DNA of 36,007 nt from a bacterium (lineage in GTDB: Bacteria; Myxococcota_A; Bradymonadia; UBA7976; UBA1532), in assembly GCA_030426085.1 (NCBI GenBank), contig JAUHYW010000091.1:1-36007 (forward strand). The letters run 5' to 3'. A program made the translations under genes and the position numbers. The notes beneath the pieces were generated by a model. That model did not search any database and had not been told where the DNA came from. It worked only from the letters and a program-made list of their open reading frames with translations. Shown here one piece after another: positions 9,508 through 36,007 of this stretch (its first letter is position 1; every line of letters starts with the position of its first letter).

Positions 9508-10251
9508 TCAGCCCTCTTCGCCGTCGGCCTCGTCCTCGGGGGCGGGGCGCTGGGGGCGGTCGCCGGCCTCGCCGTCCTCGGGGGCGGGGCGCTCGGGCCG
9601 CTCGGCGCCGTCCTCGGGGGCGGGGCGCTCGGGCCGCTCACCCTCGGGCCGCTCGCCCTCGGGCCGCTCCGGGCGGGCGTCGGGGCACGCCTCGTGGCAC
9701 GCCTCGGCGACGCCGACGGCCTCCTCGCGGCAGGCCGCGGGCTCGCCGCCGTCCTCGGCGCACATCTCGAACACCGCCCGGGCCTCGGGCCGGCACGCCT
9801 CGTGGCAGGCGGCGACCCGCCGGCGGATGGCCCGGGCGGCGTGGCGCAGGCAGGCCTCTTCGGCGACGATCTCGCAGCCGGGGAAGTCCTCGGGCACCGC
9901 CTCGGCCTCGGCCAGCCGGGTCTCGCAGCGGGCGACGAAGTCCTCGAGGTGCTCGGCGCAGAACGCGGCCGGGTCGATGCCCGGGGCCGGCCCCTCGCCG
10001 GCCTCGCCCTCTTCGCCCTCCGGCGGCATCGGCCGCTCGGGGCGCTCGGGGCGGGCCTCGTCGTCGCCGGCGTCCTCCGGCAGCCCGTTGCGGCGCATCG
10101 CCTCGGCGGCCGACTCGGCCTCCAGCTCGGACAGCGCGGTCTCGAGCGCCTCGTCCGTCGGCTGCTCGTAGTCGTCGCCGGTCTCGCAGGCGGTGAGCGC
10201 CAGGCCGGCGGCCAGGGTCAGGGACAGTCGGTTGATGGTGCGGCGGAACAT
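9508..10251 (-). CDS. Acidic Cys-rich lipoprotein with ERPERPAPEDG repeats
   Basis: The ATG at 10251, preceded by GAGGGAGG, gives a 247-residue protein. A lipoprotein signal peptide ends in LALTAC. Then comes an acidic, Pro/Glu-rich stretch and a central Cys-rich helical region with AACHEAC and EACHEAC motifs. The C-terminus consists of repeats of ERPxxPAPEDG. I recognise no enzymatic domain. The Cys-rich segment (C-x3-C pairs inside Ala/Glu-rich helices) resembles the modules of the large Cys-rich protein at 34453-36007, suggesting a shared family. An upstream in-frame ATG at 10275 would place extra residues before the signal peptide and is disfavoured. A near-consensus sigma-54 promoter lies about 75 nt upstream. 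The likely location is the inner face of the outer membrane or periplasm. Confidence 0.82.
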   Translation of the reverse strand: MFRRTINRLSLTLAAGLALTACETGDDYEQPTDEALETALSELEAESAAEAMRRNGLPEDAGDDEARPERPERPMPPEGEEGEAGEGPAPGIDPAAFCAEHLEDFVARCETRLAEAEAVPEDFPGCEIVAEEACLRHAARAIRRRVAACHEACRPEARAVFEMCAEDGGEPAACREEAVGVAEACHEACPDARPERPEGERPEGERPERPAPEDGAERPERPAPEDGEAGDRPQRPAPEDEADGEEG

Positions 10252-10325
10252 GGGGGCCTCCCTCGTTGCGGGCATCGGGTCTGCGGTGGTTCCGGCCGGT
10301 CGCCCCGGCCACGCTGGATTGGGAT

Positions 10326-10662: not shown

Positions 10663-12969
10663 ATGCGACATATACACACATGTATTCTCGGCGTCGCCCT
10701 CGCGCTGTCGGCCTCCGGTTGCGCCGGAGGTCCGAGCGACGAGACCCCCGACGCCCCCAAGTCCCCGCCCGCGGGGGACGAGGCCAGCCCCCGGTCCGAG
10801 GCGCCCACGCCGAAGGCCCCCGAGAAGGTCGAACCGCCGCCTCCGCCCGACCCGCTGCGCCATCGGGACGACCTGCCGCCCGAGAAGCGCATCGTGATCG
10901 TCGTCGACGGCGAGCCGCGCATCGCCGACCTCGACGCGGCCCGGGCCGCCGGCTACACCGCGGTCGACTTCAGCGATGACTGGACGCCCTACATCTTCGA
11001 GGAGCGGCTCGACGCCGAGGGCGAGGTGCTCGAGAACCGCTACCGTCAGATCTACCTCGGGCTGGCCAACGACCGCACCGACGGCGACGGGCGGGCCCTG
11101 CCGGACAACGAGCTGAACTTCCTCGAGGTGTTCGGGATCCCGCCGTCGATGGGCGTGGTGCAGCGGCGCTTCCTCGAAGACGAGGAGAAGGCGTGCCACG
11201 AAGAGATCGACTACGCCGCGATGGCGAAGGTCGACAGCATCCCCTTCCTGCGGGGCGGCCGGCTGCGCAGCTACAAGTCGCGGGTGGCCCGGGCCCGGCG
11301 GGCGGTGAAGAAGGCCATCGACAAGGCGAACAAGAAGGGGCGCAAGGCGGCCGACGCGGCCATCCGGGCGGCGAAGAAGGAGAACAAGGCCCGCCAGGCC
11401 GAGTTCGAGCGGCAGATGGCCGCCCACCGCAAGCGGGTCGCCGAGGGGCCCCGCGATCAGCCGCGCCCGGCCCCGCCCGCCGCGCCGGACACCGTGCCGG
11501 TGCCCCCGAAGTGGACCCCGATCGAAGACGCCGAGGGGCTCGTGGCCCGCGATCCGGAGGTCGCCGGCACCGTCGAGGAGTCGATGGCCCTCGCCGAGCT
11601 GGCCACGAACCGGGAGGTCGCGTTCGACCACGTCGAGCGGCGGCTGAAGTGCGACGAGCACGACCGGCCGCGCTACAAGCACAAGAAGGGGCGCTTCGAT
11701 CACGGGCTGCGCATGGGCGTGCGGCGGTTCCAGCGCAAGCACAAGATCTACGAGTACGCCAACATGAAGGGCGAGACGATGGAGATGCTCGCCACGCCGC
11801 CCCGGCAGAGCAACTACAAGGCCTTCGTCCGGGTGCTGACCGAGCGGGTGGTCGCCGCGACCCACATCCTGGAGGACGGCACCACCCAGACCGGTGAGGA
11901 TCCGCCGACCTACACCGGCTCCGACGGCGCGCAGCACCCCATCCGCAATCTGGTCGACGAGTTCGTCACCGCGGCGACGAGCCAGCTCATGCTCGACACC
12001 CCCGACCGGGTGCTGGCGTTCTTCAAGCGCCACTCGGCGGAGGACTTCCAGACCTGGATGCGGGTGGGGGTCAAGTTCCCCGCGCTGCCCGAGTACTACG
12101 ACGGCGACATGGACCTCGAGATCGTCATCGACCGGGGGGACGTGTGGTACGACCTGCCGTACAACGACGCGGGCAAGGAGATCCGCCAGCCCCGCAGCCG
12201 CATGCCCAAGCTGATGGTCTACCTGCGGTGGAACGACCAGACCATCCGGCTGGTGCGGTGGCCGACGACCATCGGCGGCTGGCGCACCGATCTGGCGCCC
12301 AACGGCTACGTCTACATGCGCTACAAGGGCTCCGACGTCGGCGACCGGGTGATCCGCAAGATCATCTCCGGGCCGACCTGGGTGCCGCCGGAGAGCACCC
12401 CGCTCAAGAGCCTCGCCAAGCGGCGCTGGATCAACGGCAAGGCCCAGGGCATCGTCAACTACGAGGAGATGGGGCCGGGCTACCTCTCGGCCTACGGGCT
12501 GGTGGCGGGCTACTTCGTCATCCCCCGCCCCGACGGCAACGACGTCGACCGGGGCATCCGGGCCCACGGCTCGTCGGACTACATGTCCATCCGCAGCTCG
12601 CGCCGGTTCAGCCACGGCTGCCACCGGCTGCTCAACCACCTCTCGGTGCGGCTGTACGGCTTCGTGCTCAACCACCGCCCGCACACGGTGGGCGGCGACC
12701 AGAAGATGAACGCCCAGCGGCAGTTCTACTACAAGGAGCAGGTCTACCAGATGCGCATGCCCTCCCGGGGCTTCGCCTACTTCCTCGACCCGCCGATGCC
12801 GGTGCGGGTGCTCGAGGGGCGCATCCGGGGCAAGCGCAAGCGGCCCTACGAGGGCTACGTGAAGATCCCCGGCGAGACCTACCCCGATACGCTGCCCGGC
12901 GAGGCGCCGGCCGGTGAGGACGACCGGGCCGGGGGCGGCGCGGTGGCCGACGAGGACGACGACGCATGA
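10663..12969 (+). CDS. Large lipoprotein with L,D-transpeptidase (YkuD) active site
   Basis: This 768-residue lipoprotein (lipobox ASGC, Cys20) starts with a Pro/Glu-rich linker. A long middle region includes a Lys/Ala-rich helical stretch (about 205-265) and a segment like a peptidoglycan-binding motif (LRMGVRRFQRKHKI, about 350-363). The C-terminal part carries His635 in RAHGSS and SHGC (650-653) with Cys653. That is the HG...SHGC arrangement of YkuD L,D-transpeptidases, which cross-link peptidoglycan or attach proteins to it via a Cys acyl-enzyme. The motif continues CHRLLNH instead of the common CxRL/M. The protein is two to three times the length of typical members. It lies in the periplasm, probably outer-membrane anchored. 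The next gene overlaps by 4 nt (ATGA), suggesting a functional pair. The active-site assignment is strong; the role of the N-terminal 400 residues is unknown. Confidence 0.86.
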   Translation: MRHIHTCILGVALALSASGCAGGPSDETPDAPKSPPAGDEASPRSEAPTPKAPEKVEPPPPPDPLRHRDDLPPEKRIVIVVDGEPRIADLDAARAAGYTAVDFSDDWTPYIFEERLDAEGEVLENRYRQIYLGLANDRTDGDGRALPDNELNFLEVFGIPPSMGVVQRRFLEDEEKACHEEIDYAAMAKVDSIPFLRGGRLRSYKSRVARARRAVKKAIDKANKKGRKAADAAIRAAKKENKARQAEFERQMAAHRKRVAEGPRDQPRPAPPAAPDTVPVPPKWTPIEDAEGLVARDPEVAGTVEESMALAELATNREVAFDHVERRLKCDEHDRPRYKHKKGRFDHGLRMGVRRFQRKHKIYEYANMKGETMEMLATPPRQSNYKAFVRVLTERVVAATHILEDGTTQTGEDPPTYTGSDGAQHPIRNLVDEFVTAATSQLMLDTPDRVLAFFKRHSAEDFQTWMRVGVKFPALPEYYDGDMDLEIVIDRGDVWYDLPYNDAGKEIRQPRSRMPKLMVYLRWNDQTIRLVRWPTTIGGWRTDLAPNGYVYMRYKGSDVGDRVIRKIISGPTWVPPESTPLKSLAKRRWINGKAQGIVNYEEMGPGYLSAYGLVAGYFVIPRPDGNDVDRGIRAHGSSDYMSIRSSRRFSHGCHRLLNHLSVRLYGFVLNHRPHTVGGDQKMNAQRQFYYKEQVYQMRMPSRGFAYFLDPPMPVRVLEGRIRGKRKRPYEGYVKIPGETYPDTLPGEAPAGEDDRAGGGAVADEDDDA

Positions 12970-30873: not shown

Positions 30874-32955
30874 TCAGGGGTCGGTCGGCGTGGGCGGCTG
30901 GTCGGGGGGCAGCGCGGGGCCGGTGGGCGCGGGGGCCGCGTCGGGGGGCGGGCCCGCGTCGGCTCGCGCCGCGGCGGCCGGGCCGGCGTCGGCCTTCGCC
31001 GCGGGGGCCGCCTTCATCGTCGGGGTCGGCCGGGTCGGCGCCGGCGCGGGCGAGCCGGGCCAGACGACCTTCGCCTGCCGGCGATCGGTGAAGCCGACCC
31101 GATCCTCCACCTCGACCCGCACCGTGTGCGGCCCCGGCTTCGGCGGCTCGGGCGGCAGCCAGACGATGCGGCTCCAGCCCCGCTGACGCTCGAAGATCAC
31201 CGGCTCGCCGTCGACCATCAGCCGCACATGACGCACCCCGCTGCCCTCGTCGTGCACCGGCACGATCAGGCGGTGCCCGGCGGGGTGGGGCTCGACCCGG
31301 GGCGCGCCGATCGCCGGCGGCTCGGTGTCCCGCAGCACCGCGTACTCGCCGAAGTGCACCGTCCACCCGCGCAGGTAGCGCCCCCGGCGGGTGCGGCCCA
31401 TCCACCAGTAGCGGCCCCGCTCGTGGAAGTAGAGCGCGCTCTTCGGCGGCACCGGACCCACCGCCAGCCCCAGGGTGCTGCCGCCCTTCGTGGGCACCCA
31501 GCCGTTGGCCAGCCGGTACAGCGGGCTCACCGGCTCCAGCCCCGGCGCGCCGGCATGCTCGGCGGTGCCCAGGAACAGCGTCGGGTAGTCCCAGAAGCGG
31601 CTCTCCCGGCCCAGCTCGAACCAGATGGGGGCGTCCTCCACCGGGCGGTCCATCGGCCCGGCGATGGTCTGCGCCCGGCGCCAGCGGCGGCCGGCGGCGG
31701 CCTTCACCCCCACCTCGACCCGGACCGGCTCGTCCCCGGGCACCGTCAGCGCCAGGGCCGGGGTCTCGCCGAGGCGGGTGGGCACCGCCGACGACACCCG
31801 GTCGCCGTCGACCCGCACGTCGTATGGCCCGTCGCACAGCTCGGGCACCGGGATGGCCAGCATGCGGTCGCGCAGCAGCACCCCCTCGGCCTCGACGACT
31901 CCCCGGGGCTTGCCCAGACCCCGGCGCGTCGTCGCGCACGGCCGGGTCCGGGCCACCTCGATGCGGAAGCGGGCCTCGGCCTCGAGCCCGGCCGCGTCCC
32001 GGGCCACGATCCGGGCCGCGTGCTGCCCGTCGCGCAGGCGGCTCAGCGGGCGGCCCACCTTGCGGTGGGCCCGCACCCGGGGGCCCGGGCCGCCCACCAG
32101 CGTGTGGAACATGCCCTCGCCCTCGGCCCGCAGCCGGGGGTGATAATCCAGCTCGGTGTGACCCTTCTCGACGTAGGACGCCGCCTCGTAGACCGAGCGG
32201 TGCCACAGGCGGCCGTCGATGTGCAACTCGACCGCGTAGGGGGTCACCGCCCGGCTCATGCCGTCGATGAAGTCCACCGCCTCGACCATCAGCCGCACAT
32301 CGCCCCGCAGGATCACCGGCCCGTCGACCAGCGCCCCGTCCTCGAAGCGGTACATGCGCTCGTCGAGCCGCCCGTCGACGTGGGCGTCGGGGGCCCGGGG
32401 CACCGCGAGCAGGCGCCGGATCTGCGGCGGGTGGCGGTCGGGCAGGGGCATGCCGTTGGTCAGCGGGTTGACCGGCGCGCTCTGCTTGCGGGTCTCGAAG
32501 TGCAGGTGCACCAGATCGGTGCCGCTGGTCCCGATCCAGCCCAGCACCTGCCCCCGCTTCACCGGGATGGGGGGCCGCTGCCAGACCTTGAACGCGAAGC
32601 CGTCGCGCCCCTCGGCCGCCGCCCGCACCGCCGGCATCAGCGCCGGGGCGAAGCCCGACAGGTGAGCGTAGACCGTCACCCAGCCGTCGTCGTGGGCGAT
32701 GTAGACCGCCCGCCCGAAGCCCCGGTCGTTGCGCCGCAAGCGCACGATCTGCCCGTCGGCGGCGGCCCGCACCGCCACCGTCGAGTCGCCGTCGGTGGTC
32801 AGATCCATACCCGCGTGGTGATGCCCGATGCGGTAGGTGCCGAACGTCGAGCTGACCCGGGGCGGGTACGCCAGCGGGTAGAGGAAGCGGGCCCCCTCGG
32901 CGCGGGCCGGGGGGCCGAGCGCGGCCAGCGTGAGCAGCGCCGCGGCGAGCGGCAT
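30874..32955 (-). CDS. M23 (LytM/peptidoglycan hydrolase) family metallopeptidase with long C-terminal extension
   Basis: From the ATG at 32955 this is a 693-residue secreted protein (signal peptide about 1-19, ending PPARA). The M23 domain is at about 25-170. Zinc ligands His47 and Asp51 (HHHAGMDL) and His152 (HLHF) are present, as are the catalytic-site His98 (YAHLSG) and His150, so it should cleave peptidoglycan cross-bridges. Unusually, more than 500 residues follow: beta-rich, Ig-like segments (VRLMVEAVDFIDGMS, HAARIVARDAAGLEAEARFRI, VRHVRLMVDGEPVIF, HTVRVEVEDRVGFT) and a Pro/Ala-rich tail. It follows the acylphosphatase gene by 14 nt, in the same operon. An outer-membrane or cell-surface role is likely. 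Confidence 0.9.
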   Translation of the reverse strand: MPLAAALLTLAALGPPARAEGARFLYPLAYPPRVSSTFGTYRIGHHHAGMDLTTDGDSTVAVRAAADGQIVRLRRNDRGFGRAVYIAHDDGWVTVYAHLSGFAPALMPAVRAAAEGRDGFAFKVWQRPPIPVKRGQVLGWIGTSGTDLVHLHFETRKQSAPVNPLTNGMPLPDRHPPQIRRLLAVPRAPDAHVDGRLDERMYRFEDGALVDGPVILRGDVRLMVEAVDFIDGMSRAVTPYAVELHIDGRLWHRSVYEAASYVEKGHTELDYHPRLRAEGEGMFHTLVGGPGPRVRAHRKVGRPLSRLRDGQHAARIVARDAAGLEAEARFRIEVARTRPCATTRRGLGKPRGVVEAEGVLLRDRMLAIPVPELCDGPYDVRVDGDRVSSAVPTRLGETPALALTVPGDEPVRVEVGVKAAAGRRWRRAQTIAGPMDRPVEDAPIWFELGRESRFWDYPTLFLGTAEHAGAPGLEPVSPLYRLANGWVPTKGGSTLGLAVGPVPPKSALYFHERGRYWWMGRTRRGRYLRGWTVHFGEYAVLRDTEPPAIGAPRVEPHPAGHRLIVPVHDEGSGVRHVRLMVDGEPVIFERQRGWSRIVWLPPEPPKPGPHTVRVEVEDRVGFTDRRQAKVVWPGSPAPAPTRPTPTMKAAPAAKADAGPAAAARADAGPPPDAAPAPTGPALPPDQPPTPTDP

Positions 32956-32969
32956 GGCGGGGGTGAGCT

Positions 32970-33245
32970 TCAGCGCCGGATCTCGAACCCGTCGAACTCG
33001 CCGGTCGGCGGCAGCCACTCGGTGTCGACCAGATTCACCTGGGCCGCCGGCGGCCCTTGATGACACCACGCGATCAACCGCTCCAGCTTGGGCCGGGTGC
33101 CCTCGGCGATCAGCTCGACCGAGCCGTCCTGGCAGTTCTGCACGAAGCCGGTGAGCCCCAGCTTGCGCGCCTCCTCCCGGGCGCTGGCCCGGTACCACAC
33201 CCCCTGGACCCGGCCTCGGATCCGCAGTGAAATCCTCTCCCGCAT
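32970..33245 (-). CDS. acyP: Acylphosphatase
   Basis: This 91-residue protein is a complete acylphosphatase, hydrolysing the carboxyl-phosphate bond of acyl phosphates. The phosphate-binding loop GRVQGVWYR contains catalytic Arg19. GFVQNCQDGSVE contains Asn37, which orients the attacking water. Length and fold pattern (GRVQGV, DGSVE, FEIRR end) are typical. It lies between the FAG-repeat gene (13 nt upstream) and the M23 peptidase gene (14 nt downstream), all on the minus strand, probably one mRNA. Enzymes of this family are housekeeping and no link with its neighbours is evident. Confidence 0.95.
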   Translation of the reverse strand: MRERISLRIRGRVQGVWYRASAREEARKLGLTGFVQNCQDGSVELIAEGTRPKLERLIAWCHQGPPAAQVNLVDTEWLPPTGEFDGFEIRR

Positions 33246-33258
33246 CGCGCCCCCCGCG

Positions 33259-34338
33259 TCAGCTCGCCCGGGCCTCGACGATGAGCTCGTACTCCCGCTC
33301 GTAGAGCCGGAGCTGGTCGAGCACCACCGCCAGATTGTGCTGATTCGTCTCGTCCCCGCGCACCCGGTCGAGGTCGTCCATCTGGCGGGCCAGATCGTAC
33401 AGCGCGTCGCAGATCGTCGACAGCGCCTCGGGGTCGCGGGTCTTGCGGTCCTGCCCGGCGAACTGCTCGCGGTAGGCGGTGAACCCGGCGTTGGCCGCCT
33501 CGCCGAACGCGCTGACCAGCCGCGGCAGGGCGCTGCCCTGGCGGGTCTCCCGGACCTTGTCCAGCTCCTCGCGGTACATGCCCAGCCGGCCCTCGACGAT
33601 GCCGATGTTGCGCCGGTTGCCCTCGGCGTGCAGCCCCTGGGCCTCGAGGGCCCTCATGCGGTCGAGCGTCGCATCGAGGGTCGCGATCATGCGCTCCATG
33701 AGGGCCGGGCGGCGCGACAGCCGCGACTTGCCGGCGAAGTGGGCCTTGTAGAGCGCGAACTGCCCGTTGGCCACCGAGGCGAGGAAGTCGGCCTGCTCGT
33801 CGAGGGTGCCCGCGCCGCGGGCCTGCACGATCGCGGCCCGCTCGCTCAGGTAGAGCGCCCGGCTGTCCCGCACCTGCTTCAGCGTCGAATCGACGACCTC
33901 GGCCGGCGCGTCGAGCCGCCCGGCGATGCCGGCCAGCGCGCCCTCGATGCGGCCGAGCTCGTCGATCATCTCGCCGAGCAGGCCCAGGTCGCGGGTCGCT
34001 CGGGACTTGCCGGCGAAGTGGCGCCGGTAGCGGTTGAACGTCAGCCCGGCCCAGTTGGACAGCTCGTGGCCCGCGAGCACCTCCGGCGGGGCCGCCTGGG
34101 CCGACCGGATCGCGGCGGCCTCGTCGACGTACAGCCGGCGGTTCTTCTCGAGCGTGGCCACCAGCGCGGCCGCGTCGGCGGTCCGGGCCTGCCCCAGCAT
34201 CTCGTCGGTGCGGGCGATCATGTCGTCGAGCAGGCTCGCGTCGCGCGAGACGCGGGGCTGGCCGGCGAAGTGGGCGTCGTAGCGGGCGTGCACCTTCTCG
34301 GCGCGCGCCCGCAGGGCGTCGATGTCGATGTGTGTCAT
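33259..34338 (-). CDS. Four-fold helical repeat protein with FAG-x-x-R-x-[ST]-R motif
   Basis: I do not recognise a family for this 359-residue, all-helical, cytoplasmic-looking protein. It consists of four repeats of about 84-93 residues. Each begins Y-x-x-x-F-A-G-x-x-R-x-[ST]-R-[DR] at Tyr20 (YDAHFAGQPRVSRD), Tyr104 (YRRHFAGKSRATRD), Tyr197 (YKAHFAGKSRLSRR) and Tyr289 (YREQFAGQDRKTRD). A L-L-x-x-M-I-type helix follows. About 35 residues later comes a second motif of the form R-x-L-Y-x-x-E-x-x-x-I-x-x-A-R (RRLYVDEAAAIRSAQ, RALYLSERAAIVQAR, LGMYREELDKVRETR, LRLYEREYELIVEAR). It has no Cys, no signal peptide and no membrane segment. A TATACT box 7 nt before the ATG suggests a leaderless mRNA. 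It heads a run with acylphosphatase and M23 genes. Confidence 0.85.
   Translation of the reverse strand: MTHIDIDALRARAEKVHARYDAHFAGQPRVSRDASLLDDMIARTDEMLGQARTADAAALVATLEKNRRLYVDEAAAIRSAQAAPPEVLAGHELSNWAGLTFNRYRRHFAGKSRATRDLGLLGEMIDELGRIEGALAGIAGRLDAPAEVVDSTLKQVRDSRALYLSERAAIVQARGAGTLDEQADFLASVANGQFALYKAHFAGKSRLSRRPALMERMIATLDATLDRMRALEAQGLHAEGNRRNIGIVEGRLGMYREELDKVRETRQGSALPRLVSAFGEAANAGFTAYREQFAGQDRKTRDPEALSTICDALYDLARQMDDLDRVRGDETNQHNLAVVLDQLRLYEREYELIVEARAS

Positions 34339-34452: not shown

Positions 34453-36007
<1,555 letters not shown>

Follow-up and report, generated by a model that had tools for sequence, protein, structure and literature searches.

The complementary strand of the window (the whole stretch of DNA analysed here, 36,007 bp, which is an entire contig of a 10.1 Mb genome) encodes a four-repeat, all-helical protein that represents a real but unnamed helical repeat family. 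Our preferred reading, held with modest confidence, is that this is a new family of soluble all-alpha repeat proteins in which two motifs clasp each repeat together, and that by analogy they may act in the cytosol as scaffolds for protein or peptide partners.

Family identity

The open reading frame begins with ATG and specifies a product of 359 aa (Table 1). Nothing above cut-off was found for this protein in Pfam, NCBIfam, PHROG, PADLOC or PDB sequences, and the use of 30 orthologues as queries returned no family from Pfam, NCBIfam or PDB sequences; catalytic families were likewise unmatched in Pfam and NCBIfam for the window protein and these orthologues. Several sub-threshold names (Calici_MSP, NFD4_C, Dad4 and Rad51) were rejected, as different members gave different names, of the kind that helical proteins typically match by chance. 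PADLOC gave 0 anti-phage defence families at E 0.1 for the window protein, viral contigs and plasmids contained no match to the family, and a narrow literature search revealed nothing on the four-repeat family or on bacterial 14-3-3 proteins. The first-pass annotation had described an unrecognised four-fold helical repeat family, and this description was borne out: none of the tested libraries names it, and Pfam gave neither an above-cut-off match for the window protein nor one that was consistent over 30 members.

Table 1. Location of the four-repeat gene, its repeats and loops, and its downstream neighbours in the window
Feature	Position	Strand	Basis or detail
Four-repeat all-alpha protein, no named family	33259..34338	-	ORF call, orthologues, AlphaFold2 model
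Repeat 1 (residues 1-84)	34087..34338	-	helices 6-24, 34-53, 57-81
Repeat 2 (residues 85-178)	33805..34086	-	helices 85-107, 118-141, 147-175
Repeat 3 (residues 179-270)	33529..33804	-	helices 179-200, 211-233, 239-268
Repeat 4 (residues 271-359 and stop)	33259..33528	-	helices 271-292, 303-326, 330-358
FAG loop 1 (residues 24-33)	34240..34269	-	helix A-B connector; R29 covaries with E73
FAG loop 2 (residues 108-117)	33988..34017	-	R113, R116 and D117 covary with E166
FAG loop 3 (residues 201-210)	33709..33738	-	R206 and R209 with E258
FAG loop 4 (residues 293-302)	33433..33462	-	R298 covaries with E349
Acylphosphatase, downstream neighbour	32970..33245	-	Pfam PF00708, E 9e-26
Secreted-looking peptidase M23 protein, next downstream	30874..32955	-	PF01551, E 8e-16; start inferred at 32955

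Repeats and predicted structure

The four copies of the FAG motif begin at residues 24, 108, 201 and 293, with spacings of 84, 93 and 92 residues from one F to the next, in agreement with the four related repeats of 84-93 residues originally proposed. Five of the six repeat pairs scored higher than all 1000 shuffles (BLOSUM62 local scores of 62-94), and for repeats 1 and 4 (score 48) only 3 of 1000 shuffles were as high, so a chance origin of the repeats was dismissed. The loop signature F-A-G-x-x-R-x-[ST]-R, as first described, is exact in all four repeats. A second motif is also present in each, but the form given for it, R-x-L-Y-x-x-E, fits only repeats 1 and 2 exactly, the equivalents being R-L-G-M-Y-R-E-E in repeat 3 and L-R-L-Y-E-R-E in repeat 4, and its Arg is not conserved across 87 orthologues. 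Nor does this motif lie about 45 residues after the F throughout, since the F-to-Y distances in repeats 1-4 are 46, 55, 54 and 53 residues. Family-wide it is better written [LM]-Y-x-x-E, in which the Glu hardly varies.

An AlphaFold2 model built with 26 sequences (pLDDT 94.5, pTM 0.85) contains 12 helices, three per repeat, and the FAG loop connects helix A to helix B. Repeats 3-4 modelled alone gave the same helices with a pLDDT of 95.3, and the four-repeat, 12-helix architecture is well supported.

Comparison with known helical folds

Foldseek returned no match with E <0.001, either for the whole model against the PDB and viral models or for repeats 3-4 alone against the PDB, and no solved fold matched globally, the best TM being about 0.43 by query length. 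A second look with VIA produced rows for designed repeats, 14-3-3, retromer VPS35 and spectrin with Z values of 8-12, which were not accepted as homology because, according to the tool, such scores are common for helical proteins. Several of these rows seem to align helix B of one repeat with two helices of the following one, B and C, and to pass over the helices in between; these aligned ranges suggest that neighbouring B helices pack side by side in antiparallel fashion. Successive FAG loops would therefore lie on opposite edges of the protein.

The weak resemblances that Foldseek and VIA gave to TPR-like, spectrin and designed repeat proteins are what would favour an origin, with much divergence, within a helical repeat superfamily that already has a name, such as TPR or spectrin. 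We consider such an origin rather improbable given the E and TM values above, the lack of a Pfam match that is above cut-off for the window protein or consistent among members, and a null comparison with the TPR consensus. No TPR was among the Pfam matches listed for the window protein or 30 members; the TPR resembles the four-repeat protein as a helical repeat scaffold, which by analogy is a likely mode of action here, but it is 34 residues long with two helices, whereas the present repeat has about 90 residues (spacing 84-93) and three helices. Spectrin (e.g. 1cun) shares tandem three-helix units of about 90-110 residues, but there is no sequence match and the window repeats are separated by short breaks rather than joined by a shared helix. 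Its Foldseek superposition was poor (TM up to 0.40, E 0.53, rmsd near 19 A), VIA overlaid 90 residues locally at 2.6 A, and in Pfam the window protein had no spectrin match and one member had a spectrin-named match at E 0.028. Designed helical repeats (DHR64, DHF38 and toroids) overlay local helices at about 2 A, but they consist of two-helix repeats and do not match the four-repeat model globally.

The comparison with 14-3-3, a nine-helix fold, raised the question of a peptide- or phosphopeptide-binding adaptor working in a similar way in kinase-rich myxobacteria. Three helices of the model overlay 14-3-3 at 1.7-2.0 A over 65-72 residues (Z 8.1-8.7), and many protein kinases were found in 57 of 57 genomes searched. 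These Z values are, however, in the range of a common helical-bundle arrangement, the registers differ between rows, and hhalign against 14-3-3 zeta gave E 0.41 and a probability of 0.14%. Relatives of family f4 that do not have the gene also encode at least 36 kinases, so that kinase content does not track it; a kinase linkage was rejected on the same grounds, as counts of at least 36 occur in nearly all genomes, whether or not they have the family, and do not discriminate. A mapping of the zeta groove residues N173 and W228 onto N283 and Y346, taken from range ends, was also set aside given the differing register of the other rows and the null hhalign result. Only the three helices overlay (global TM about 0.2), Pfam gave no 14-3-3 match for the window protein, and four three-helix repeats make up the latter; the resemblance, at about 2 A, is local and without profile or other sequence support. 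An adaptor of this type is thus highly improbable, and it would be more far-fetched still to propose that conserved Asn and Tyr residues in repeats 3 and 4 read Ser/Thr-phosphorylated partners. If true, this would amount to a bacterial adaptor hub, similar in action to 14-3-3, in kinase-rich myxobacteria.

Conservation and covariation of the two motifs

An alignment of 103 members, comprising 87 orthologues and 16 diverged copies, was used to examine the motifs. Whichever repeat is considered, 98-100% of the orthologues retain the first loop Arg, and in Y-x-x-E the Glu is conserved at 98-100% and the Tyr at 67-86%. N191 (99%), N244 (100%) and D117 (100%) are similarly constrained, position F+2 is mostly Gly, and in repeats 1, 2 and 4 Asp, Asn or Ser predominates at F+9. 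In the predicted structure helix A ends at the loop Gly, and the +9 Asp, Asn or Ser comes just before helix B; these are the usual helix-end and helix-start residues.

Covariation was scored as corrected mutual information, which ignores shared ancestry and here draws on few changes among related sequences. With all 103 sequences (about 61,000 pairs), N191-N244 ranked 1st, D117-E166 2nd, R298-E349 3rd, R113-E166 5th, N283-N335 6th and R29-E73 7th, and crossed pairs of the helix-A and helix-C asparagines ranked 129th or worse. With orthologues only, R29-E73 ranked 1st, R298-E349 2nd, N283-N335 3rd, R113-E166 8th and R206-E258 28th. With orthologues only, the same-repeat Arg-Glu pair exceeded the other-repeat pairs in every repeat, and with all sequences it did so in repeats 1, 2 and 4; R206-E258 was weak in the full set, where it ranked 131 and a cross-repeat pair 126. 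Among the 16 diverged copies, loss of the loop Arg from a repeat went with loss of the Glu from that repeat (odds ratio 16; p 4e-6 with no correction for relatedness), the odds ratios for other repeats being 4.6, 0.27 and 0.53.

From this same-repeat covariation of Arg with Glu and Asn with Asn we infer that the two motifs of the first-pass annotation are two ends of one contact within a repeat, and at the level of sequence the FAG loop and Y-x-x-E look like one structural unit per repeat. Strong conservation of the loop had originally been taken to argue for four equivalent binding sites, for phosphate, nucleotide or protein; the helix-cap Gly and Asp together with the Arg-Glu covariation offer a structural account of the signature instead, and ligand sites are therefore disfavoured as the reason for the conservation. 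That the loops are equivalent sites for phosphate, nucleotide or a polyanion draws on the two arginines per loop that are 95-100% conserved in repeats 1-3, but it is unlikely in view of the pairing and joint loss of Arg and Glu, the cap positions of Gly and Asp, and the suggested side-by-side packing of B helices, which, judging from the aligned ranges, would set the loops alternately on opposite edges. A clasp role for the loop Arg is fairly well supported, and the loops may have a binding role on top of it.

A putative scaffold

In the arrangement that we favour, each repeat of about 90 residues would consist of three helices (A, B and C), and FAG-x-x-R-x-[ST]-R-D would form the A-to-B connector, in which Gly ends helix A and Asp, Asn or Ser starts helix B. 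A salt bridge is predicted between the loop Arg and the helix-C Glu of Y-x-x-E, so that the motifs would clasp one repeat together, and repeats 3 and 4 would have an extra pair between an Asn of helix A and one of helix C. Together the four repeats may then serve as a cytosolic scaffold for a protein or peptide partner, with specificity coming from R106, E123, Q193, R210, R216 and D311 and not from the shared loop. Each of these six residues is conserved in one repeat only, which by sequence makes them better functional candidates than the loop.

The points counted for the scaffold were that there is no membrane helix, no phylum-wide operon partner and no catalytic family match, and a cytosolic protein-binding scaffold is probably, as a reasoned guess from other helical repeat proteins, what the protein provides. 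The near-invariant Asn, Arg and Asp could also mark an enzymatic or ligand site. R106, E123, R210, R216 and D311 persist even in the diverged copies, and N191, N244, N283 and N335, which are 89-100% conserved in orthologues, are almost gone from them; one reading of these sequences is that the diverged copies changed partner and kept the scaffold.

Genomic neighbourhood

The acylphosphatase gene begins 13 bp downstream of the four-repeat gene, and the M23 ORF follows about 14 bp after it, so the gene does head a run of the order initially described. This order is conserved only within the window's own family, however, and acylphosphatase and M23 genes are not recurrent neighbours in the other families that keep the four-repeat gene. 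A cell-envelope factor acting with these two products would account for the tight three-gene order in the window and its relatives of the same family, but is very unlikely given that restricted linkage and the absence from the window protein of any hydrophobic stretch of the signal-peptide or membrane type. In Bradymonadaceae (f6) a universal stress protein is found nearby in 11 loci. No operon partner conserved across the phylum was found, which fits a stand-alone gene.

Other ORFs were seen near family members. One genome of f27 has a PP2C phosphatase ORF (L096 3033-3800) just upstream of the family gene on the same strand, and ORFs of similar size occupy this position in L097 and L100. In the window, a cysteine-rich protein (34453-36007, complementary strand) consists in part of similar Cys modules joined by EPEPEP linkers, with a GDRPDGDRP run up to the contig end, its only Pfam match being a low-complexity one (PARP, below cut-off). 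Two lipoprotein-like ORFs of 768 and 255 aa (10663-12966, forward strand, and 9511-10275, complementary strand) had no Pfam match at 1e-5.

Distribution of the family

The genome carries one copy of the gene. Of 57 genomes from its class, 42 have a full-length orthologue, 35-71% identical and also in one copy each. A profile search that covered 377 genomes sampled from the phylum detected the family in 120 of them (76 of 234 genera), mostly in single copy. A second, diverged copy is frequent in family f11; such copies (L130-L145 and L075-L078, from f11 and a few other genomes) retain the repeat 2 motif, the best retained of the four, have lost that of repeat 4, and have the helix-A and helix-C asparagines replaced. 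One diverged member (L139 3044-5011, complementary strand) has 309 extra C-terminal residues, for which no Pfam match was found.

A scan of a named collection, which used one peptide pattern and so leaves presence in other phyla possible, identified relatives in Myxococcota, among them Lujinxingia vulgaris and a Nannocystis MAG, and in one cyanobacterium, Microseira wollei. Judged by contig coordinates, two oddly labelled matches, to a 'Klebsiella' MAG and to a 'proteobacterium', are equivalent to genomes assigned to the phylum of the window. The Microseira wollei homologue (L072 9881-10813) has three repeats, without repeat 1, and adjoins transposase-like ORFs and a radical-SAM-maturase-like ORF. 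It is the sole match among 244 cyanobacterial genomes. Since it has no repeat 1 and lies near transposase-like ORFs, it was likely acquired by lateral transfer; its place in a quick tree is unsure, as it sits on a long branch.

The repeat is well defined, confidently predicted and soluble, and the protein is a good target for structural and pull-down work; a clean repeat model is available for adoption by Pfam. A gene that is full-length and mostly single copy in about one third of the sampled Myxococcota, with near-invariant residues maintained over a large divergence, is likely to be important to these bacteria.
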